This document shows, piece after piece, positions 2,570-54,931 of a stretch of 64,000 nt of DNA; the first letter of the stretch is position 1, and each line of letters opens with the position of its first letter. This DNA comes from a virus, in the IMG/VR virus record IMGVR_UViG_3300044644_000945, positions 24,325 through 88,324 of that record. The stretch is one strand, 5' to 3'. The notes beneath the pieces are model-generated. The model was not told the origin of the DNA and did not search any database. It saw only the letters and a list, made by a program, of their open reading frames with translations. The translations under genes were made by a program, and so were the position numbers.

Positions 2570-3301
2570 TTATGGAAGCTGTAAGTCATTTATATTATTT
2601 TCAAATACAGGAGCTGAAAATACTTCAGAAGCTGGAGCAAAACCTGCTGTTAATGATTCATTACCATCTGTTTGAGGAGTTTCTGCTGTCTTTTTAAGAA
2701 CAATATGCGCATCTTCATTGAATGGAATTAACTTAGCATCATCTGCAGTGTTTGCATATGCAAATTTACCCTCAGTTCTTTTTGGTAAATATAATGCATA
2801 ACTTGGATATTCAGAACCTTCTTTGAAATATTTTTGTGCAGCAATTGTAAAATAGATTTTATAACCACCTTTAATAAGAAAAGCTCTTACCTCAGCTACA
2901 AGATCTTCAATAGTTGGTGCATCAATGTTCATACCTTGAAATTGATCTAACAAGTTCAATTGTTTTAAGAATGTACCTAAGAAATTTGTAATTGACTCAT
3001 CTCTTGTGATAGTCTTACCTTTGTATTCCCAGTCTTTAAAGCCATATTGATTAGCTTTTACATTACTAGTTTGACCTTTATAGTTACCTTTAGAAGGATC
3101 TAATCTATTGATTTGAAAACCTTCAAAATCATCACCTAACTCAGGACCCATTAAGCTAAATATCAAGTTGTATTGATTTGCATCATAAGGAGGTCTTTCT
3201 AATTTCAGATCTAATACTGTACATTGGTGTGTACCTGGTTGTAAACCTTTTTGAACATATGTACTTTCTGCTGCTGTAAAATTGTTTAAACTAAAACTCA
3301 T
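2570..3301 (-). CDS. putative single-stranded DNA-binding protein
   Basis: This 243-aa protein has no clear motif by eye. It begins like phage SSB and recombination-mediator proteins (MSFSLNNF...), is rich in beta-type sequence, and has a low-complexity linker at about 205-230 before a short C-terminal end (NNINDLQLP) that faintly recalls an SSB tail. Its place between the DnaG-like primase and the Sak4-like ATPase is the main support. A terminator sits directly behind it, which would suit an abundant protein. The function is inferred. Confidence 0.5.
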   Translation of the reverse strand: MSFSLNNFTAAESTYVQKGLQPGTHQCTVLDLKLERPPYDANQYNLIFSLMGPELGDDFEGFQINRLDPSKGNYKGQTSNVKANQYGFKDWEYKGKTITRDESITNFLGTFLKQLNLLDQFQGMNIDAPTIEDLVAEVRAFLIKGGYKIYFTIAAQKYFKEGSEYPSYALYLPKRTEGKFAYANTADDAKLIPFNEDAHIVLKKTAETPQTDGNESLTAGFAPASEVFSAPVFENNINDLQLP

Positions 3302-3326: not shown

Positions 3327-4118
3327 TTAATCTATAAATACTTGATCCCAGTGTGTTGTTACTGTTCCATCTTCTGCAATTTCAGAGATAACAATCTCTT
3401 TATTTCTCAGATGTTCTGGTCTTGCACCACATAGGATATCATCTTGTGTCTTAAAACTCAAGATATTTTTGTTACCTTTTCTCACTAAGTATCCAATAGC
3501 ATCTGCTTTGGATGTAGTGAATATTTTTAACTTGCCTGTAAGATTTAAATCTAAAGCTTCAAAGCTGTTACCATTTTTCTCTAACATAGTGTCTTTTACG
3601 TGACCTAGTAAGATTAAATGAGGTGTAAGTGCTTTAAATCTTTTGATAATATCTTCAAAAGCTTGTCTTAACCATGGATATCCAGCACCATTTGCCATAT
3701 TAAGGATGGTTCCATGTTTAGCTTTACCACCTGTTGTGGCTGTAAACCAGTTTGCACCCATAGGAGATTTTGAATACAAAAACTCTGCATAAGATACACA
3801 CATGTTTTCTAAAGCTGATATTGTGTCAATAGCAATATACTTGTATGGCTTACCAGCATTTATAATTGCCTGTTCAAGATTGAACAAATCTTGTATAGTA
3901 GTAATTTTAATCTTTACTGCTGATACATAGTCAGAACCATCTTCTAAGTCAATCAATAAACTATCTTTCAGTTGTGACAACAATGTTGTTTTACCTACTT
4001 TAGGTTTACTAAAGATTACAAGATTTTTAGGACTTTTTGTAACTGCTCCTACTATACCAGTAGGTAATGAAATACCTGGTACTACAGCTGTCTCTGCTGT
4101 CTTTTTTACTTCTGCCAT
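3327..4118 (-). CDS. Sak4-like RecA-fold ATPase
   Basis: This 263-aa protein has a Walker A at about 37-45 (SKPKVGKTT) and a Walker B strand at about 94-101 (YIAIDTIS). This is the layout of the AAA_24/Sak4 group, which in phages acts with an SSB in single-strand annealing or strand exchange. LIDLEDGSDYV after Walker A is also typical of the group. It overlaps the next upstream gene (4106-4753) by 13 bases, so the two are probably translationally coupled. A role as a recombination ATPase is family knowledge; the exact activity is inferred. Confidence 0.7.
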   Translation of the reverse strand: MAEVKKTAETAVVPGISLPTGIVGAVTKSPKNLVIFSKPKVGKTTLLSQLKDSLLIDLEDGSDYVSAVKIKITTIQDLFNLEQAIINAGKPYKYIAIDTISALENMCVSYAEFLYSKSPMGANWFTATTGGKAKHGTILNMANGAGYPWLRQAFEDIIKRFKALTPHLILLGHVKDTMLEKNGNSFEALDLNLTGKLKIFTTSKADAIGYLVRKGNKNILSFKTQDDILCGARPEHLRNKEIVISEIAEDGTVTTHWDQVFID

Positions 4119-15503: not shown

Positions 15504-17333
15504 TTACATAATTGTCTTTGATTTTATAAGCTTATCTACTCTTTTAGATACATAAGCTATAATATCATTTGGAAGATTTTTGATATCAGTCATCTTAATG
15601 TGATAATCAAACATTTCTTCACAAGGAACATGTTCTTCTATGGCAATCTGAATTACTTGAAAACCAAGTGATTGCGCCATAGTAACTTTCTTTCTGGTAT
15701 CATCAATGGCTTTTTGACCATCATAACCACTTGCATATGGAGCACCATCAGAGATAACAAACAACAAACAAGGATCTTGATTCATAGATCTTATCTTTTT
15801 AGCAACAGCATATATGGCATGACCATCTCTGTTGTTATGTCTTGCAGATATATCACCTAGTGTATAACCATTGATACCTTTACCATGTTCTACATATGTA
15901 CGTATCATGGTATCACCATATGATCCTCCACCACCTCCATCTGCAGTATGACCATATACATATATTCTTGCATCTGGTACTTTTCTAAATACCTCATACA
16001 AGAATATAGCAGCTTGTCTTGCTTTCTTGATTTTGTGACCATCCATAGAACCAGACTCATCTACTAACACACCTATGTTAAGCTTGTTAGTCTTAACTTC
16101 ACCAAATCTTTCATAGATGGTAGGTACATTTTGCTTAGCTTCTGCAATCTTGTTAGTATCAAGTCTACCAGAACGCATAGATTTCATAGCAAACTGATAA
16201 TCTTTACATTTTCTAGCAAACAATTGTGCTAACACAGATGCTTTACATGTATCTATTTCTTTAAGTTCTCTTTGATATCTAGCTTTATCTACTTCTGGCT
16301 TAATAAACTTAATAGTACTATCGTCTGAATTACCATCAGAATCATAGTTATGTTTCTTAGGTGGAGCATTTTTCTCATCCATGTCTTCAGTAAAATCCTG
16401 AAATTCTTTCATAGACTCTTCATCTTCTTCTACTGGAGCACCACTCATCATCTGTTCCATCAAAGATTTAGCAAGGTCATTCATATCATCAGCTGTAGGA
16501 CCAGGATTTGGACAAGAACCATCTGGTTCAGGTTCTTCTTCATTATCTTTGATGTACTTTTTAACTACACCATGCATGTAAGAAGCTTGTTGTTCACATT
16601 CTTGAGAAGTACTAGGAAAACCATGTTTTTTTACATAGCTTTCAATTTGTTTGATAGGTTTCTCAAACTCTTGCATCTCTTCTTCAGTAATATGTGCAGG
16701 ATATCTTAGAAACTTAGTAATAAGCTCTAACAATCTTTTACCTTCATGTTCTTCAGAAGACAATGGTTCATATGTTTCATCAAACTTATGTTGCTTATAC
16801 TTTTGCACAAACTTACTATATCCTGGAAATCTTTCTGCAAGCTTTTTATTTACACGCTCTGTGTTTAAGATTGTAAATAACAAATCTTTAGGTGTAGTCC
16901 TAGTATCAGGAGACATAGCATTCATAGTACGTACATAATCACCTTTACCTTGCATTGTTGCAAGAGCTGCATTTTGTATAGCTGCACCATAAAATGCATC
17001 TAGCAATTTTGTGTCATGATTTTTATACTTTCCATCTTCACCTTTTAGCATAGTAAGTGGTACATGTATAGTTGGTGCAGTAGTAGCTCTTACATCTTGT
17101 CTTTGCAACTTAGATGTAAGTTTCATGTCTTTTGTGACATTCATAACTTTAAACATACTACCAATCATGTTAGCAGCTGTTTTAAGATTTTGTGTATCTC
17201 TTACAAAATATGAAGAGTAACCACTTCTAGGTGCATCATCCCAGTCAAACAACTCATTTCTTTTGTCATAAAAAGAATATGCATCTTCTTCTTTTCTTCT
17301 AAACCAATCTCTATTAAAACCTATTTTACTCAT
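15504..17333 (-). CDS. VWA-domain protein, cobaltochelatase CobT-like
   Basis: This 609-aa protein has an acidic middle (about 285-340) and a C-terminal VWA domain whose metal-ion-dependent adhesion site begins with DESGS near residue 425, followed later by ISDGAPYASGYDG. CobT and related VWA proteins work with a MoxR/CobS-type AAA+ ATPase; the gene directly upstream encodes one. Such pairs occur in T4-like and other large phages, and their role there is not known. Metal insertion or protein remodelling are possibilities. Confidence 0.8.
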   Translation of the reverse strand: MSKIGFNRDWFRRKEEDAYSFYDKRNELFDWDDAPRSGYSSYFVRDTQNLKTAANMIGSMFKVMNVTKDMKLTSKLQRQDVRATTAPTIHVPLTMLKGEDGKYKNHDTKLLDAFYGAAIQNAALATMQGKGDYVRTMNAMSPDTRTTPKDLLFTILNTERVNKKLAERFPGYSKFVQKYKQHKFDETYEPLSSEEHEGKRLLELITKFLRYPAHITEEEMQEFEKPIKQIESYVKKHGFPSTSQECEQQASYMHGVVKKYIKDNEEEPEPDGSCPNPGPTADDMNDLAKSLMEQMMSGAPVEEDEESMKEFQDFTEDMDEKNAPPKKHNYDSDGNSDDSTIKFIKPEVDKARYQRELKEIDTCKASVLAQLFARKCKDYQFAMKSMRSGRLDTNKIAEAKQNVPTIYERFGEVKTNKLNIGVLVDESGSMDGHKIKKARQAAIFLYEVFRKVPDARIYVYGHTADGGGGGSYGDTMIRTYVEHGKGINGYTLGDISARHNNRDGHAIYAVAKKIRSMNQDPCLLFVISDGAPYASGYDGQKAIDDTRKKVTMAQSLGFQVIQIAIEEHVPCEEMFDYHIKMTDIKNLPNDIIAYVSKRVDKLIKSKTIM

Positions 17334-17349
17334 AGTGTTTTTGTATTAT

Positions 17350-17376
17350 AAAAAAGGGAGACTGTTACATCTCCCT
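17350..17376 (-). terminator. intrinsic terminator after the MoxR-like gene
   Basis: The minus-strand stem AGGGAGA/TCTCCCT with loop TGTAACAG is followed by a six-T run. It separates the ATPase from the VWA gene, so the partner is transcribed by read-through or by its own promoter. Confidence 0.85.
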
Positions 17377-17390
17377 GTTTTAGGTTATTA

Positions 17391-18674
17391 TTAAAATGCA
17401 GAAATTATAGATTTAACCTTAGCACGCTCAGATGCACCTATGCTATCCTCAAATAGAGGCATAACAACACATTCTATAGCATTGATCAAGTCAAATCCAT
17501 CTACTACTAAACCAGCAGTTTGAAGAGTATGTCTAACAGATATGCTAGTAGACAACTCTTGGTCTTTGTATTGCTTTCTAACCTCATTAGCTACTTTTAC
17601 AATAGCTTTTGCAGGTTTCTCTTCAATACCAGTTCTAATCATAAGAACTTTAATTTCGTCTTTCTCCTGTGGATACTGTGTCTCAATAGGGAAAAATCTA
17701 TCTAGTAATGCTCTATCTAATGCATTAGTACCTGAATACTCAGAACCAATATTAGCAGTTGCAATAAACACAGTATCAGGATGAACTTCAATCTTTTGAT
17801 CTGCTTCATCATGAGCCACATCTACAGGCAAATATCTTCTACCATCTAAACATGGGAACAAGATATTATTAGCTGCCAGTGGAGCTCTAGAAAGCTCGTC
17901 TAAGAGCACAATTCCACCTGACTGGATATGAGATACAAATGGAGCTGTTTTGAACTCAGAAATGCCTTCTTTATTAAGTGTATGAACACCTAGTAAAGCA
18001 GACTGAGCATCTTGAACAGTACCCATATCTTGTATAAACATTTCTTTACCCAAAGCTTTAGCCAAGTGTTTAACAATTTCTGTTTTACCAGTACCAGTGT
18101 CGCCTATTAACATGATATTTTCACCACGTAATACATTGCGTACAAGTAAATACCACATGTCAGGTTCAATATGGAAACCTATGTCTTCTCTTGTAGGTAC
18201 AGGATACTTAGCTGCAATAGTTCTTTTAAGACTTGCACCTGATGATGCTGTAGCACCTGCTGCAGGCATGGCAAACTTAGCATCCCAGTCAATTGTATAT
18301 CCATAAGGAGTAAACAACTCAGACATCTTTTTGGCATTTTCTATACCACACCACTCAATGGTTGGATTATCAATCATATAGTCCATTAGATAATCAATAA
18401 TAGGATTAGCTTCTGGACACTGTTGCTTGTATGCAGTGTTATTATATGTCAATGCAACAATATCTTCTTTGCGAAAGTGCAAGTGATCAGCTTCTGGGAA
18501 GTCATATTTATGTGCTGCAAACACAGTACCTAAAGGAAATGCTACAATCTCAGCAATAGGAGCAGTTATTTTGATGTCCTGTACTGCAATTGGTAATGTT
18601 TTCTCAAAGGATTGACCTGGCAATGTTTCAATTTGAAAACTTGTTCCTTCTAAAAATGCTCTAAATAAAATCAT
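17391..18674 (-). CDS. MoxR/CobS-like AAA+ ATPase
   Basis: This 427-aa protein has Walker A GDTGTGKT near residue 195 and Walker B GGIVLLDELSRAP about 55 residues later, then a sensor/arginine-finger region NALDRALLDRFFPIE. This is the MoxR/CobS arrangement. The N-terminal 140 residues are not recognised. With the VWA protein downstream it forms the typical ATPase-VWA pair. Confidence 0.85.
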   Translation of the reverse strand: MILFRAFLEGTSFQIETLPGQSFEKTLPIAVQDIKITAPIAEIVAFPLGTVFAAHKYDFPEADHLHFRKEDIVALTYNNTAYKQQCPEANPIIDYLMDYMIDNPTIEWCGIENAKKMSELFTPYGYTIDWDAKFAMPAAGATASSGASLKRTIAAKYPVPTREDIGFHIEPDMWYLLVRNVLRGENIMLIGDTGTGKTEIVKHLAKALGKEMFIQDMGTVQDAQSALLGVHTLNKEGISEFKTAPFVSHIQSGGIVLLDELSRAPLAANNILFPCLDGRRYLPVDVAHDEADQKIEVHPDTVFIATANIGSEYSGTNALDRALLDRFFPIETQYPQEKDEIKVLMIRTGIEEKPAKAIVKVANEVRKQYKDQELSTSISVRHTLQTAGLVVDGFDLINAIECVVMPLFEDSIGASERAKVKSIISAF

Positions 18675-24657: not shown

Positions 24658-24876
24658 TTAAAGTTCAGTTACTACATCATTTACATATGCTGATGCTCCA
24701 AACCAACCTATTATTGTTACTATCCAAAAAGGAATGCTGGTGGTGCAATCTACAAAAGTCGCAGGTGTTAATATGCTAATAAAAACACTAATAATAAGAG
24801 GTATAAATATACCTAAGCATACTATGCTAAAAAGTATAACCATTGTATGCAATATTTTGTTTACTAAATTTTTCAT
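24658..24876 (-). CDS. small two-helix membrane protein
   Basis: This 72-aa protein has two hydrophobic segments (about 11-38 and 48-64: MVILFSIVCLGIFIPLIISV and IPFWIVTIIGWFGASAYV). A membrane role in the host envelope is likely; holin-like or superinfection functions are possible but unsupported. Confidence 0.65.
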   Translation of the reverse strand: MKNLVNKILHTMVILFSIVCLGIFIPLIISVFISILTPATFVDCTTSIPFWIVTIIGWFGASAYVNDVVTEL

Positions 24877-25546
24877 TTGTTTGTTATTTGAGATTAAAAA
24901 ATATGTGTTGCTCTCTTAGGTAAATTTTAACGTGCCAAACCTACATATAAGGCACAGGTGATTTTTCATCTATCAGTCTTAGAGCATTGACTGGTGACTA
25001 CTTTCTTTCATAAAAAGCGGGTGGAAATAAAAATCATCATACTACATATAGTAATGATAATAGAGAATAAACATATATACTTACATACATAGTTTATGAT
25101 AAAAGAACTAATTTTATGTTCTATTTACTGACTATCAGCTGTGTAGCTATATAGTCGCTGAATTTTTGTTGTTTTTGAGAAGATTTTTTGAGAGTTATAA
25201 TAGTAGGAGAGTGGTTTTGTCATCATCTTAACCACTCTCTTGAACTATCATCTCAAACAAATAATGTTTCTCTTAACTATCTCAGCTACAGAGAGTTAAC
25301 TACTTATCAGTTGTGTTATTTATAGTAGTTACCATTGAAAAGAACTCTCACTGTTCTGTTGCATTATTCGCAATTGACCCTCGTGCTGAGACAAAATTCT
25401 TTGCAGTATCTCTAACACATTCTACATATTACTGAGAATAGTGCAAGAAACAGTGTTGTTATCTTGTGAAAGAATTGTTTTTGTCTTATGTTGGAAAGAA
25501 CTACACCCTTTTTCAGGGTGTGTTCTAACCTAATCAACTCAACTTA
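24877..25546 (-). other. 670-base structured non-coding region
   Basis: This has no convincing open frame on either strand. Hairpins seen by eye are GTGCC/GGCAC (24932-24955), CAGTC/GACTG (24974-24993), a long stem with GAGAGTGGTT/AACCACTCTC at its tip and TTTGAGA/TCTCAAA at its base (25187-25257), TTAACT/AGTTAA (25273-25299) and the terminator-like stem at 25498-25525. It lies directly downstream of the 184-aa gene, so it is either a very long 3' region or an independent RNA. Confidence 0.55.
25498..25525 (-). terminator. terminator-like hairpin after the 184-aa gene
   Basis: GAAC-ACACCC pairs with GGGTGT-GTTC around a seven-base loop; on the minus strand it is followed by the T/C-rich TTCTTTCC rather than a clean T run. 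A second hairpin (CAACTTAC/GTAAGTTG) covers the stop codon of the gene. Confidence 0.55.
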
Positions 25547-26101
25547 CTATGATGGTAAGTTGGCTGTTAACTGCTCTTGGGCAATTCTAAACGCATTCAC
25601 TTCTTCAACATTGTTGTATTGCAACAATTTGTCTTTAGCTACACCTGTTGGGTCGTAGCTTGTGAAGCGCAGAATTCTGTTACCATTGTGTCTAAGCTCA
25701 ATGCCTTCAGCACCTGTACGTTTAACAAACTTGGCAATAGCTGTTTCATATTCAGCTACTTCTTCAGCTGTATAATCACTAACAGGAATTGCTTTCAATT
25801 CCTTTTTAATGTTCAGCCTGTTTTTAAGTTCAGGTCTGTTGTCAATATCAGCCTCAGAGATTTCTTCAATGTGAAGACAACCCTGCATTTGATATTTCAT
25901 TTTTGCAAGACTTGTTTCAAGCTTGCTAATCTCGCCACTAAACAACATAGATTTAGTGTTAGTGACGTGAAGACCATTTGCTGTGAAACTTTCAGAAGTT
26001 TCTTCAACACGAAAATAACCACGTGGCTTGCTTGCGTCACGTTGAGTTTTGCTTGGTGTTACGTAGTCAACACCATTCTTTGATTTACATACTGTAATCA
26101 T
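25547..26101 (-). CDS. hypothetical protein, cassette gene 5
   Basis: This 184-aa protein is not recognised. It is soluble and charged, with a helical second half (YTAEEVAEYETAIAKFVKRTG). It has its own leader (26114-26190) of the type shared by five consecutive genes and a hairpin behind its stop, so it appears to be a single-gene transcription unit. Expression is probably strong. Confidence 0.7.
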   Translation of the reverse strand: MITVCKSKNGVDYVTPSKTQRDASKPRGYFRVEETSESFTANGLHVTNTKSMLFSGEISKLETSLAKMKYQMQGCLHIEEISEADIDNRPELKNRLNIKKELKAIPVSDYTAEEVAEYETAIAKFVKRTGAEGIELRHNGNRILRFTSYDPTGVAKDKLLQYNNVEEVNAFRIAQEQLTANLPS

Positions 26102-26113
26102 AATAAGGATTTG

Positions 26114-26190
26114 TTTTAAAGTTATACTGAGCCTTTTGGGGGTGTGGTGGTGGTGTGTTGTTTTGCGCTCTGTTTGGTGGCGGTGTGGTG
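26114..26190 (-). promoter_or_regulatory. repeated cassette leader, copy 1
   Basis: On the minus strand a C/A-rich CACCACC stretch (26137-26190, the longest of the set) is followed by TATAACTTTAAAA (26114-26126) and then the start codon. TAACTTTA is close to the Bacteroidota -7 box TAnnTTTG. Confidence 0.65.
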
Positions 26191-26200
26191 GTGTTTGTCT

Positions 26201-26233
26201 TTAAAAAGAGTGCTGTTGTTACACAGCACTCTT
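26201..26233 (-). terminator. intrinsic terminator of the 107-aa gene
   Basis: The minus-strand stem AAGAGTGCTG/CAGCACTCTT with loop TGTAACAA is followed by a T run. It lies 4 bases past the stop codon. Confidence 0.9.
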
Positions 26234-26237
26234 ATTA

Positions 26238-26561
26238 TTACCATACAACAAGTACATCATTTTCAATTAGAAAATGTACTGTGTGACTTGGTACATAGTG
26301 ATGGTTCTTTTTACCACGTACTGTAAATGTACCTCTGTCTACATCAAACCATTTGATTAGAGTTGTAAAATCTAATAGTTTGATATCAAACAGTATTTGC
26401 CAAGAGTCATTTATCTTTCTTGTGGTAACTGTTTCAGATTGTTTGTTAAGTCTATCATGTAAGATAGATGCACCTTGTGAGCAACTTCCTGTTCTCACAA
26501 AGTTTACATTTTCAAAAGGGTTGATGATTTCTTTTGTACCAATGTTAAAATGCTGTGTCAT
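26238..26561 (-). CDS. hypothetical protein, cassette gene 4
   Basis: This 107-aa protein seems beta-rich and is not recognised; DRGTFTVRGKKNHHYVPSHT is its most striking segment. It stands alone between its own leader (26574-26610) and terminator (26201-26233). Confidence 0.65.
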   Translation of the reverse strand: MTQHFNIGTKEIINPFENVNFVRTGSCSQGASILHDRLNKQSETVTTRKINDSWQILFDIKLLDFTTLIKWFDVDRGTFTVRGKKNHHYVPSHTVHFLIENDVLVVW

Positions 26562-26573
26562 AATGATTATTTA

Positions 26574-26610
26574 TTTAAAGTTATATATGTTGGGTGTTTG
26601 GTGGTTTGTG
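26574..26610 (-). promoter_or_regulatory. repeated cassette leader, copy 2
   Basis: Minus strand: a CACC-rich stretch, then TATATAACTTTAAA (26574-26587), then 12 bases to the ATG. It matches copies 1, 3 and 5 in order and spacing. Confidence 0.65.
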
Positions 26611-26613
26611 TTT

Positions 26614-26645
26614 AAAAATAAAGAGATGCTTTTACACATCTCTTT
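26614..26645 (-). terminator. intrinsic terminator of the 118-aa gene
   Basis: The minus-strand stem AAAGAGATG/CATCTCTTT with loop TGTAAAAG is followed by ATTTTT. Confidence 0.9.
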
Positions 26646-26649
26646 ATCA

Positions 26650-27006
26650 TTACTCAGCTAATGCATAAGCTTTACTATTCTCAGAATACTGTTCCCACTC
26701 ATGTATGTTATATCCATTCATTATAAAGCGACTGAACTCAGCAATATTATATTCTTCATCAGATTTATATTTAAAATCAGTTCTTGCTTCATTGTAGTAT
26801 CTAAACTCAGCTGTTTTTACATTAACAATTTTATCCCAATGATTGTAAGATACAAACTTATACAGTTTGTCTTTGATTACAGCTTCTTGGGATATTGCAG
26901 GTTCTGTATAAGTTCCATACAATACTTGCAAAGCAAGTTCAGGATTACCTGTTTGGTTAACTACTTGTAATAGTCCATTTAAGTTTACTTCAATTGTTGT
27001 TTTCAT
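26650..27006 (-). CDS. hypothetical protein, cassette gene 3
   Basis: I start at the ATG at 27006 (118 aa, MKTTIEVNLNGLLQVV...), because it stands at the usual distance from the repeated leader; a longer frame to 27084 would cover that leader. The product is charged, rich in Tyr, and not recognised. Confidence 0.7.
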   Translation of the reverse strand: MKTTIEVNLNGLLQVVNQTGNPELALQVLYGTYTEPAISQEAVIKDKLYKFVSYNHWDKIVNVKTAEFRYYNEARTDFKYKSDEEYNIAEFSRFIMNGYNIHEWEQYSENSKAYALAE

Positions 27007-27017
27007 AATATTATTTG

Positions 27018-27057
27018 TTTTAAAGTTATACATATTGGTGGTGAGGAGGTTGTTGTG
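27018..27057 (-). promoter_or_regulatory. repeated cassette leader, copy 3
   Basis: Minus strand: a C-rich CACCACC stretch, then TATAACTTTAAAA (27018-27030), then CAAATAATATT and the ATG. Confidence 0.65.
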
Positions 27058-27063
27058 TACAAT

Positions 27064-27088
27064 AAAAGTGTTGTTAAACAACACCTTT
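27064..27088 (-). terminator. terminator overlapping a stop codon
   Basis: The minus-strand stem AAAGGTGTTG/CAACACTTTT (one G-U pair) has a five-base loop that contains the stop codon of the 76-aa gene. A T run follows. Confidence 0.8.
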
Positions 27089-27304
27089 ATGTACTACATT
27101 TTCTATTATACTAATGTTTAATAAATCAATGTTTTCTGATAGTAACCAATTGTTACCTGCAATTAGTTTTCCTACAACAATTCTATGTTGTGCAATTAAC
27201 CCATATATTTGTTCTTCTTCATTGATTATATCAATGATTACAAATTCTACTTTTACAATACCAAAAGGGGTGTTTTTTTCAATAATGACTGTTTCGTGTA
27301 ACAT
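27074..27304 (-). CDS. hypothetical protein, cassette gene 2
   Basis: This 76-aa protein is rich in Ile and Val, with a beta-barrel-like pattern (FGIVKVEFVIIDIINEEE). It is not recognised. The stop lies inside the loop of its own terminator, and the leader at 27315-27350 is of the repeated type. Confidence 0.65.
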   Translation of the reverse strand: MLHETVIIEKNTPFGIVKVEFVIIDIINEEEQIYGLIAQHRIVVGKLIAGNNWLLSENIDLLNISIIENVVHKGVV

Positions 27305-27314
27305 AATTTATTTA

Positions 27315-27350
27315 TTTAAGAGTTATATACTTTGGTGGTGTTGGGGTGCT
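27315..27350 (-). promoter_or_regulatory. repeated cassette leader, copy 4
   Basis: Minus strand: CACCCCAACACCACC, then TATATAACTCTTAAA (27315-27329; C for T against the other copies), then the ATG after about ten bases. Confidence 0.6.
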
Positions 27351-27360
27351 GTCTTTAATG

Positions 27361-27384
27361 AAAAAGCAGGTTGTTACACCTGCT
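27361..27384 (-). terminator. intrinsic terminator of the 97-aa gene
   Basis: The minus-strand stem AGCAGG/CCTGCT with loop TGTAACAA is followed by TTTTT. Confidence 0.9.
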
Positions 27385-27390
27385 GTTTTA

Positions 27391-27684
27391 TTAACAACCA
27401 TAATGAGGATGTTCATCAAATGTTGGTTCATGTTCTTCAGGTTCTTCTAATTTTTGAAAACCTATGCCACAAACCATGTAGAAGTCTTCATCATCTTGAA
27501 TGACATCACCTACACATGTTGAACGAACTTCATTCATTGCCCAATCTACATGGTCATTTTGAGCATATTCAAACGCTTTCTCTAATGATGAAGCATTTAC
27601 AAAACCTGCATAAACTCTTGGTTGACATTCAACTTCTTCAAATTTGTTGATACCTGTTGAATGAAAAATGTGATACTGTTTCAT
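27391..27684 (-). CDS. hypothetical protein, cassette gene 1
   Basis: This 97-aa protein (MKQYHIFHSTGINKFEEVEC...) has a mixed alpha/beta look with an acidic C-terminus (EEPEEHEPTFDEH). It is not recognised. Its leader and terminator are those of the repeated cassette type. Confidence 0.65.
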   Translation of the reverse strand: MKQYHIFHSTGINKFEEVECQPRVYAGFVNASSLEKAFEYAQNDHVDWAMNEVRSTCVGDVIQDDEDFYMVCGIGFQKLEEPEEHEPTFDEHPHYGC

Positions 27685-27695
27685 GATAATATTTG

Positions 27696-27732
27696 TTTAA
27701 AGTTATTTTTAATGGTGGTGTTGTGGTTGTTG
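27696..27732 (-). promoter_or_regulatory. repeated cassette leader, copy 5
   Basis: Minus strand: CACAACACCACC, then AATAACTTTAAA (27696-27707), then CAAATATTATC and the ATG. Confidence 0.65.
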
Positions 27733-27742
27733 TAATAACAAT

Positions 27743-27771
27743 AAAGCACACCTGAGGGTACAGTGTGCTTT
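27743..27771 (-). terminator. intrinsic terminator with no gene before it
   Basis: The minus-strand stem AAAGCACAC/GTGTGCTTT with an 11-base loop starting TGTAC is followed by ATTGTT. The sequence transcribed before it (27772-28232) has no gene, which implies a non-coding transcript. Confidence 0.8.
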
Positions 27772-28232
27772 ATGTTATAATAAATGATAATGCTTTGCTA
27801 AAGCTCCTTTTTGGTATTACATGTCAAAGCAATAAGACAACACCTTTAGTTAGTTAAGTACAATGCTCTTCAGCTACATGTTAAATAATACTACACACTA
27901 CAAGCACAGTCTGGGGGGAGCGACTATGCCTATAGTATATAATATTCTGCATTGCATCTGTACACAATACAATGGAACAATGAAGCAGATTATTTTCTAC
28001 TAAGCTATATTACTTAGTGTACTAACTCTCACCTGAGAAAGTTGGCTTCATAACATAATAACATTCTATACAGAAACTTTTCCCAAAGTTATTCTATATT
28101 TTATATTATCATGCTGTATCAAGTGGGGGTATGGTGGTGCTTGTCTTTTGGCGTGGGGTGGTTTTGGTATACAGTACTCACTTTCTCTTCCTCAGAAGTC
28201 CTGAAAAATACCAAAAATTTTTTTTGAAACAC
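27772..28232 (-). ncRNA. probable non-coding RNA between two terminators
   Basis: The stretch lies between the terminator at 28242-28267 and the one at 27743-27771. The longest frame with an ATG is about 19 codons. A CACCACC stretch (28133-28165) and ATAACTTT (28085-28092) recall the cassette leaders, though with wider spacing. Hairpins by eye include ACTAAG/CTTAGT near 28010 and AACTTT-type pairing near 28085. The end points of the RNA are not known. Confidence 0.45.
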
Positions 28233-28241
28233 CAAGTAAAA

Positions 28242-28267
28242 AAACCCCAGCAGCACTGCCAGGGTTT
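28242..28267 (-). terminator. intrinsic terminator after the tRNA-like structure
   Basis: An 11-bp minus-strand stem (AAACCCTGGCA/TGCTGGGGTTT, two wobble pairs) with a GTGC loop is followed by a T run. It ends the thioredoxin and 69-aa gene transcript. Confidence 0.85.
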
Positions 28268-28361
28268 CAAAGTCACTGAGAGATTCAAACTCTCATCCAT
28301 CAACTTTAGTTGACATGTTTATCTACTGTGGTATTTATTCCCACTTACACCAAATGACTTT
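28268..28361 (-). tRNA. tRNA-like structure, anticodon not assignable
   Basis: On the minus strand there is a 7-9 bp acceptor-like stem (AAAGTCATT with AGTGACTTT), a D-arm-like TGGT/ACCA around a GG-containing loop, a variable-arm-like TCAAC/GTTGA and a T-arm GAGAG-TTTGAAT-CTCTC. I cannot find a sound anticodon stem in the part between D-arm and variable arm. It may be a degenerate tRNA or a mimic. Its 5' end overlaps the stop codon of the 69-aa gene. Confidence 0.35.
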
Positions 28362-31259: not shown

Positions 31260-31578
31260 GGGGGTGACTGGTTTTGACAGGTCATTAGTAGGTAGTACAA
31301 TCAGCCAGAGAGATAACTGTAAACTAAGGTGAATTTAATAAATGGCAAAAACACAATCAGTGTAGTATCTCTAGGAGACAACGCACAAGTAGAAGCTAAC
31401 ATGAACAAAGTATTCTCTTTATTAGGAGAAGAAGTTGCTGTAGCAGCCTAGATTAAAAAGATTTCTCTGTTAGATTAAACAGAGTGGTGGATTGCTCAAG
31501 CCAAGCTTGACCCTATAAGCTGTATAAATTGTATTATTGATCATGGTTTGGACAGGGGTTCGACTCCCCTCACCTCCA
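31260..31578 (+). ncRNA. ssrA: tmRNA
   Basis: The ends form a tRNA-like part: GGGGGTG at the 5' end pairs with CACCTCC at the 3' end (one G-U), and AGGGG-TTCGACT-CCCCT is the T-arm. GACTGGTTTTGACAGG is typical of tmRNA 5' ends. The reading frame restarts best at GGA (31425), giving tag GEEVAVAA and a TAG stop at 31449. TTTATTA just before it matches the resume context that I recall from Bacteroides. A CTCTGTT/AACAGAG hairpin follows the stop. CCA is not encoded. It would rescue stalled ribosomes during infection. Confidence 0.9.
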
Positions 31579-31644
31579 CAAAATGTACAGTATTCTGTAC
31601 AAAATTGCACATTATGTGTGAAATAACCAACATTGAGAGAAGAA

Positions 31645-54854: not shown

Positions 54855-54888
54855 ACTTCCCTCGCTGTTATGCGAGGGTTGTTTTTTT
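54855..54888 (+). terminator. intrinsic terminator after the large fibre gene
   Basis: The perfect stem CCCTCGC/GCGAGGG with a six-base loop, extended by AAC/GTT, runs into seven T. Confidence 0.95.
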
Positions 54889-54931
54889 ATAAAAACTTTT
54901 TACTACATTTGTATAACTCTAAATAATTGAT

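Follow-up and report, generated by a model that had tools for sequence, protein, structure and literature searches.

Repeated bipartite leaders, probably promoters, in front of an array of single-gene cassettes in a crAss-like phage

The window described here comprises 64,000 nucleotides, bases 24325-88324 of a viral contig of 88,324 bases (IMG/VR record IMGVR_UViG_3300044644_000945; G+C content of 31%), and contains five consecutive minus-strand genes (25547, 26238, 26650, 27074, and 27391, named by their lower coordinates), each of them preceded by a copy of the same kind of bipartite leader and ending at a hairpin. These leaders are probably promoters, and the array can be read, with a probability of about 0.5, as a series of single-gene early promoters whose reader is encoded by the phage, the virion RNA polymerase being the likeliest candidate. 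The phage is crAss-like (Crassvirales) by its terminase (E 9e-61), portal (3e-84), and major capsid (2e-30) proteins, all of which match crAss-type proteins in PHROG, with the terminase being 24-26% identical to those of crAss phages. Replication genes occupy the minus strand and structural genes the plus strand; the cassettes are found immediately to the left of the point at which the two blocks diverge. Judged from its position only, the array is probably the early block; in the phage crAss001, early genes form a corresponding block, which lies at the matching end of its genome (PMC10136315, PMC8375218).

All five leaders listed in the original prediction are present. Each of them starts 10-30 bases after the preceding terminator and comprises a C-rich, nearly G-free stretch (C-box), followed by a TAACTTT or TAACTCT box that begins 21-23 bases upstream of the ATG. 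In four of the five leaders, eight bases separate the end of the C-box from TAACTYT; in that of 25547, an eight-base gap leads to CAGTAT, the end of which overlaps TATAACTTT. The shared box proposed earlier, TATAACTTTAAA, is found in its exact form in three leaders (25547, 26238, and 26650) and stands to that extent, with TATAACTCTTAA present in the leader of 27074 and AATAACTTTAAA in that of 27391; the most conserved part, however, is the C-box together with CAGTAT, and not TATAACTTTAAA as such. At the other end of each unit, a stable hairpin is found in all five cases (-10.5 to -21.6 kcal/mol, z-scores of -2.9 to -6.6), in agreement with the claim that every gene has its own terminator or terminator-like hairpin. 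The hairpin after 27074 overlaps the stop codon, and the U-tract of the hairpin after 25547 is poor.

The composite leader is limited to 2.5 kb of the 88 kb contig, a confinement that supports the notion of a separately controlled regulon. A position matrix built from the five leaders was scanned over the contig and over five block shuffles. Scores are 42-57 for the five leaders, 21.0 for a second, overlapping C-box of the array, and 16.4 for a sixth leader, described below; the best score elsewhere in the 88 kb is 12.4, and the shuffles reach at most 9.3. With a leave-one-out matrix, the leaders of 26238, 26650, 27074, and 27391 outscore all sites outside the array, that of 27074 narrowly (19.4 vs. 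18.2), whereas the leader of 25547 scores 4.0 and does not outscore them, because its C-box stands five bases farther from TAACTTT. CACCACC is enriched in the contig (18 copies vs. 2.5 expected, seven of the 18 in 26146-28139). The TATAACTTTAAA box alone occurs at the level expected by chance (41 matches with two or fewer mismatches vs. 44) and was for that reason rejected as a stand-alone signal; its three exact copies in the 88 kb are all located inside the array. A generic scan for a TA-box combined with a C-rich stretch was likewise discarded, as it returned mainly coding noise. A separate site at 3361, on the minus strand, carries AGTATTTATA without a full C-box in front of gene 2570-3301 and resembles a site at 118289 of the related record G007; sites of this type score barely above the reversed control.

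A sibling phage, represented by three IMG/VR contigs (L006-L008) that are mostly 81-94% identical to the window over the shared stretches of the region, has an array with the same leaders and a different gene content. In the leader of 27074, 38 consecutive bases are identical in the sibling, yet the gene that follows is different, being a diverged relative of 26650 (27% identity over 75 residues) behind which stands the terminator found after 26238 in the window. The leader has been kept and the gene and terminator exchanged; therefore, the control unit and the gene have recombined independently. Rather than conserved genes behind unconserved leaders, the comparison thus reveals the opposite. 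The leader of 25547 is also kept in the sibling. Application of the window matrix to the whole 98 kb of the sibling yields sites at 95.8-97.1 kb, which is the syntenic place, and nothing comparable elsewhere. In an exact-leader scan of IMG/VR, the sibling species was the sole genuine match, and the remainder, consisting of coding or chance matches, was set aside.

The sixth leader, which was picked up by the matrix without having been used in its training and was not on the original list, precedes a putative non-coding RNA (27737-28105) that is without a sizeable open reading frame, is predicted to fold strongly (z-score of -5.1), and has no match in Rfam. The 5' half of this RNA is 97.9% identical in the sibling, and the stretch containing the C-box of its leader (28120-28174) is 98.2% identical, compared with 73% for the adjacent spacer and 89-90% for the neighbouring genes. 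The RNA was seen only in the window phage and its sibling species; elsewhere, a small gene (M-K-T-I-Y-F-I...) occupies its place.

Searches with PhoH and with the 25547 family led to ~12 further lineages, and in ~12 distant contigs array genes stand behind a similar bipartite leader. In L072, L063, L024, L013, L021, L153, L158, L177, and others, the syntenic place is occupied by an array of small genes that have C-boxes and AT-rich leaders, and in L072 and L063 a C-box stands at every unit. The leader before the most conserved gene, belonging to the 25547 family, consists in the distant relatives of ACCCCC, 8-9 bases, CAGTAT or TAGTATTAA, an AT leader, and the ATG (the form ACCCCC-N8-9-AGTATTAA), and the bipartite spacing of 8-9 bases is held before the orthologous gene at 25-30% protein identity. 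The C-box word varies by lineage (CAACCTTCAACCCCCC in L063, CCCTTTACACCCC in L072, and CAACACCTAAACCCCC in L024), each word recurring within its own array and being nearly missing elsewhere in the record. Leader similarity is 30.9 within a genome vs. 18.7 between genomes (label permutation, 0/2000). All six word matches in G008 (121 kb) fall inside 1.7 kb, and all five in G012 (57 kb) inside 1.75 kb, in both cases on one strand. Three records of ~120 kb (G007, G009, and G010) have three word matches each, two of which are in the array; the third, 2.6-3.1 kb from the array and apparently at the end of a coding gene, was not counted as a promoter. Relatives of 26238 (47% identity) and 27074 (41%) are found in other arrays, and parts of the gene set are therefore old, while order and content turn over.

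The suggestion that a phage-coded polymerase reads the leader is plausible, since the sibling genomes encode a giant DFDxD protein, although the identity of the reader is something that we infer; the chance that it is the virion RNA polymerase appears to be about even. The giant proteins of the sibling (3,849 residues, SDFDIDT) and of G007 (3,773 residues, SDFDVDA) carry the crAss RNA-polymerase motif DFDxD and, with an E value of 9e-5, align in register with the polymerase of phi14:2 in the region of the catalytic motif. Early genes of phi14:2 are transcribed by its virion polymerase (PMC10136315, PMC8375218). In the sibling, the gene for the giant protein adjoins those of 644- and 2,023-residue proteins, which agree in length and arrangement with the products of the first two complete genes of the window contig (649 and 2,023 residues); the contig therefore seems to end next to the polymerase gene. 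The open-access papers that were searched yielded no promoter for the virion polymerase of a crAss-like phage.

Searches for other types of promoters gave the following picture. Sigma-70 promoters (TTGACA, 16-18 bases, TATAAT) number 18 in the region vs. 20.4 in shuffles, with no consistent site in the leaders. The Bacteroidetes host promoter was tested as TTG/TTTG at -33, 19-23 bases, and TAnnTTTG at -7; host-type TTG-N18-23-TAnnTTTG is absent from the minus strand of the array and present elsewhere in the genome, with two sites conserved in the sibling. DNA folds of the five leaders are near 0 kcal/mol and not better than those of shuffles, and an N4-style hairpin promoter with a GC-rich heptamer was rejected, as the leaders form no hairpins. 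At 54879-54930 on the plus strand, a host-type promoter is followed by TATAACTCTAAATAATTG, an arrangement conserved in the sibling: a TAACTCT box can also stand in what is probably a 5' leader lacking a C-box.

Several observations weigh against an array of early promoters served by the virion polymerase. The relation between the giant proteins and the phi14:2 enzyme is a modest pairwise profile match (probability of 59%), a PDB profile search with the giant protein did not find the structure of the phi14:2 polymerase, and the incomplete contig of the window yielded no DFDxD protein. Neither phi14:2, the phage whose virion polymerase was studied, nor crAss001 shows the C-box leader, a matrix of the 25547-type leaders scoring at best 12.6 on phi14:2 vs. 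13.2 in the reversed control, and the leader therefore belongs to this mostly environmental clade. In L013, L153, and L158, a clear C-box is present only at the outer units, and the AT leader of the inner genes immediately follows a terminator. A loose bipartite regular expression gives 34 matches over 1.3 Mb, compared with 24 for its reversed control (9 and 3, respectively, for matches that precede an open reading frame), and was abandoned as a general detector, the orthologous sites being nonetheless clear. Finally, the promoter role is predicted from the sequence.

In the explanation that we prefer, each small gene, as well as one non-coding RNA, would constitute its own transcription unit, arranged in the order of bipartite promoter, A/T leader, gene, and hairpin terminator. 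The promoter would comprise a box rich in C and poor in G, with ACCCCC or CACCACC at its end, ~8 bases, and CAGTAT or TAACTTT; a phage-specific factor would bind the C-box, and transcription would begin at or near the AT box. The giant DFDxD virion RNA polymerase would be the most likely reader, followed by a phage activator acting with the host polymerase. Because the units share their leaders, recombination at leaders and terminators could swap genes with control retained, and the C-box word would change jointly within a lineage.

The alternative that survives best, although in our opinion unlikely, is that the host RNA polymerase is assisted by a phage-coded activator, with the C-box substituting for the host -33 element and TAACTTT acting as the -7 element. 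In the middle promoters of T4, the MotA box substitutes for the -35 element. The Bacteroidetes -7 element is TAnnTTTG, and TAACTTTA of the window fits it at seven of eight positions; a lineage-private upstream box would also be expected of a co-evolving activator. However, the AT box in most relatives is CAGTATTAA, which does not fit TAnnTTTG, no candidate for the activator was identified, and, if the array is the earliest to be transcribed, the activator would need to be pre-made or carried in. It is improbable that the leader is an element of the 5' untranslated region, serving translation or messenger RNA stability and copied before small genes whose transcripts would begin upstream of the C-box. 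The usual placement of the leader 20-45 bases before the ATG would suit such a role, as would the presence of TATAACTCTAAA at 54912-54923, immediately behind a host-type promoter and probably in a 5' leader, but a similar C-box precedes a non-coding RNA, only 10-30 bases separate the terminator from the leader, and no host-type promoter exists in the array. We find it highly improbable that the C-rich, G-poor stretches serve as rut sites, at which Rho would load to halt polymerases that escape the hairpin terminators; the composition of the stretches on the transcript strand and their location directly downstream of each terminator agree with this, but Rho sites are loose in sequence, whereas here a private word is kept at 8-9 bases from the AT box, and the stretches are conserved together with the leader and ATG, not with the terminator. 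A view of the repeats as having no regulatory role, and as being either hot spots of recombination or passive by-products left by tandem duplication, deserves hardly any credence, for even though cassettes are exchanged at leaders and terminators, the conservation of the leaders exceeds that of neighbouring DNA, lineages with different words keep the same layout, and the leaders always hold a fixed position before the ATG in the orientation of the gene.

Returning to the virion polymerase as the reader, we can tentatively speculate about promoter dialects, in which each lineage in a clade of crAss-like phages would have its own C-box word, co-evolving with its virion RNA polymerase and marking out an early regulon private to that lineage. 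The regulon would consist of single-gene cassettes and one conserved RNA, and phages would exchange these units by recombining in the leaders and terminators that they share. The leaders offer a concrete sequence to test against the giant polymerase and mark what is probably the early regulon of uncultured crAss-like phages from aquatic habitats; they also show a way in which such phages could swap small genes under unchanged control. The private words of the lineages would, in addition, supply polymerase-promoter pairs that may not cross-react.

The earlier view that the control unit, and not the genes, has been copied holds for the leaders, which are repeated, but not for the genes, since these have been copied too: the 25547 family frequently has two paralogues per array in relatives, forming two paralogous cassettes. 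Gene 26650 most likely starts at 27006, because the upstream starts in the list of open reading frames would cross the leader. The cassette proteins, most of which are unrelated to one another, have no usable function match in PHROG or Pfam, and the 25547 family has no relatives among cultured phages. The AlphaFold model of the 25547 product (pLDDT of 78) has no Foldseek match at E below 1e-3, and weak matches to SSB and phage-coat folds were not usable. Coordinates of all elements of the array are given in Table 1.

Table 1. Elements of the cassette array and of the adjoining non-coding RNA unit in the window.
Feature	Position	Strand	Details
Leader of non-coding RNA	28105-28174	-	C-box ACCATACCCCC at 28135-28125, 8 bases, CAGCAT 28116-28111
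Putative non-coding RNA	27737-28105	-	~370 nt; terminator hairpin 27744-27770, z -2.65
Leader of 27391	27685-27733	-	CACCACC 27714-27720, 8 bases, TAACTTT 27699-27705; matrix
Cassette gene 27391	27391-27684	-	97 aa; no convincing Pfam or PHROG match
Terminator of 27391	27365-27384	-	z -3.3
Leader of 27074	27305-27353	-	CACCACC 27334-27340, 8 bases, TAACTCT 27319-27325; matrix
Cassette gene 27074	27074-27304	-	76 aa; relative in L158 array (41%)
Terminator-like hairpin of 27074, overlapping gene end	27064-27088	-	z -2.9
Leader of 26650	27007-27056	-	CACCACC 27037-27043, 8 bases, TAACTTT 27022-27028; matrix
Cassette gene 26650	26650-27006	-	118 aa; diverged relative in sibling behind 27074 leader
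Terminator of 26650	26620-26645	-	z -4.9
Leader of 26238	26562-26610	-	CCACCAAACACCC, 8 bases, TAACTTT 26577-26583; matrix
Cassette gene 26238	26238-26561	-	107 aa; orthologue in L072 array (47%)
Terminator of 26238	26206-26233	-	z -6.6
Leader of 25547	26102-26202	-	double C-box (CACCACC 26187-26193 and 26146-26155), CCCCC, 8 bases, CAGTATAACTTTAAA
Cassette gene 25547 (most conserved)	25547-26101	-	184 aa; family of >20 relatives
Terminator-like hairpin of 25547	25497-25526	-	z -6.0

Downstream of the array, conserved non-coding blocks extend over 24871-25265 on the minus strand and include a CCACCCGC stretch; the part comprising 24871-25037 is 94% identical in the sibling, and one piece of these blocks is common to L011 and L078. 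A tRNA-like element is located at 28266-28357 on the minus strand, in which the acceptor and T arms are good, a variable arm is present, and the anticodon arm is irregular; it was missed by ARAGORN and Rfam and is 92.5% identical in the sibling. An odd 'tRNA-OTHER (taat)' lies next to the early region in crAss001, and L063 has an odd tRNA with the anticodon 'caag'. A phage-encoded transfer-messenger RNA (tmRNA; 31260-31579, plus strand) with the tag ANMNKVFSLLGEEVAVAA adjoins a tRNA-Met, and relatives have a tmRNA with variants of the tag. Farther along the minus strand (15504-18674), two neighbouring genes match phage families of CobT-like and MoxR/CobS-like AAA ATPase type and form a cobaltochelatase-type pair.

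Comparison of the array with known systems reveals partial similarities to several of them. As in the MotA-dependent middle promoters of T4, a phage-specific box is placed upstream of an AT box, but across relatives the AT box of the leaders is not conserved as a host -10 or -7 element, and no MotA-like protein was identified. A compact repeated motif before early genes is also found in N4 (PMC4496689) and in P23-45 (PMC10770324), phages with a virion-carried RNA polymerase, and in P23-45 the motif tracks the presence of the enzyme (PMC10770324). N4, however, requires a hairpin promoter, absent in these leaders, the motif of P23-45 is AT-rich without a C-box, and start sites were mapped in both phages, whereas the leaders described here are known from sequence alone. 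With phi14:2 and crAss001 (PMC10136315, PMC8375218), which encode a giant DFDxD polymerase, the window phage shares a block of small, in its case probably early, genes beside the replication block, near the divergence; its relatives encode a giant DFDxD protein that is probably such a polymerase. Those two phages are without the C-box leader. The closest published parallel, in organization only, is provided by the SAS/ESAS elements of cluster K mycobacteriophages (PMC3203893), short repeats located just upstream of the start codons of unrelated small genes. Sequence and host differ, SAS are spread genome-wide rather than collected in a single compact array in which each gene has its terminator, and neither the GGGATAGGAGCCC core of SAS/ESAS nor the 17 bp inverted repeats of ESAS were encountered in the leaders, which consist of a C-box and an AT box without an inverted repeat. 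Common to both systems are the mostly single orientation, a consensus specific to the subcluster or lineage, and the retention of the element while the gene families behind it differ.

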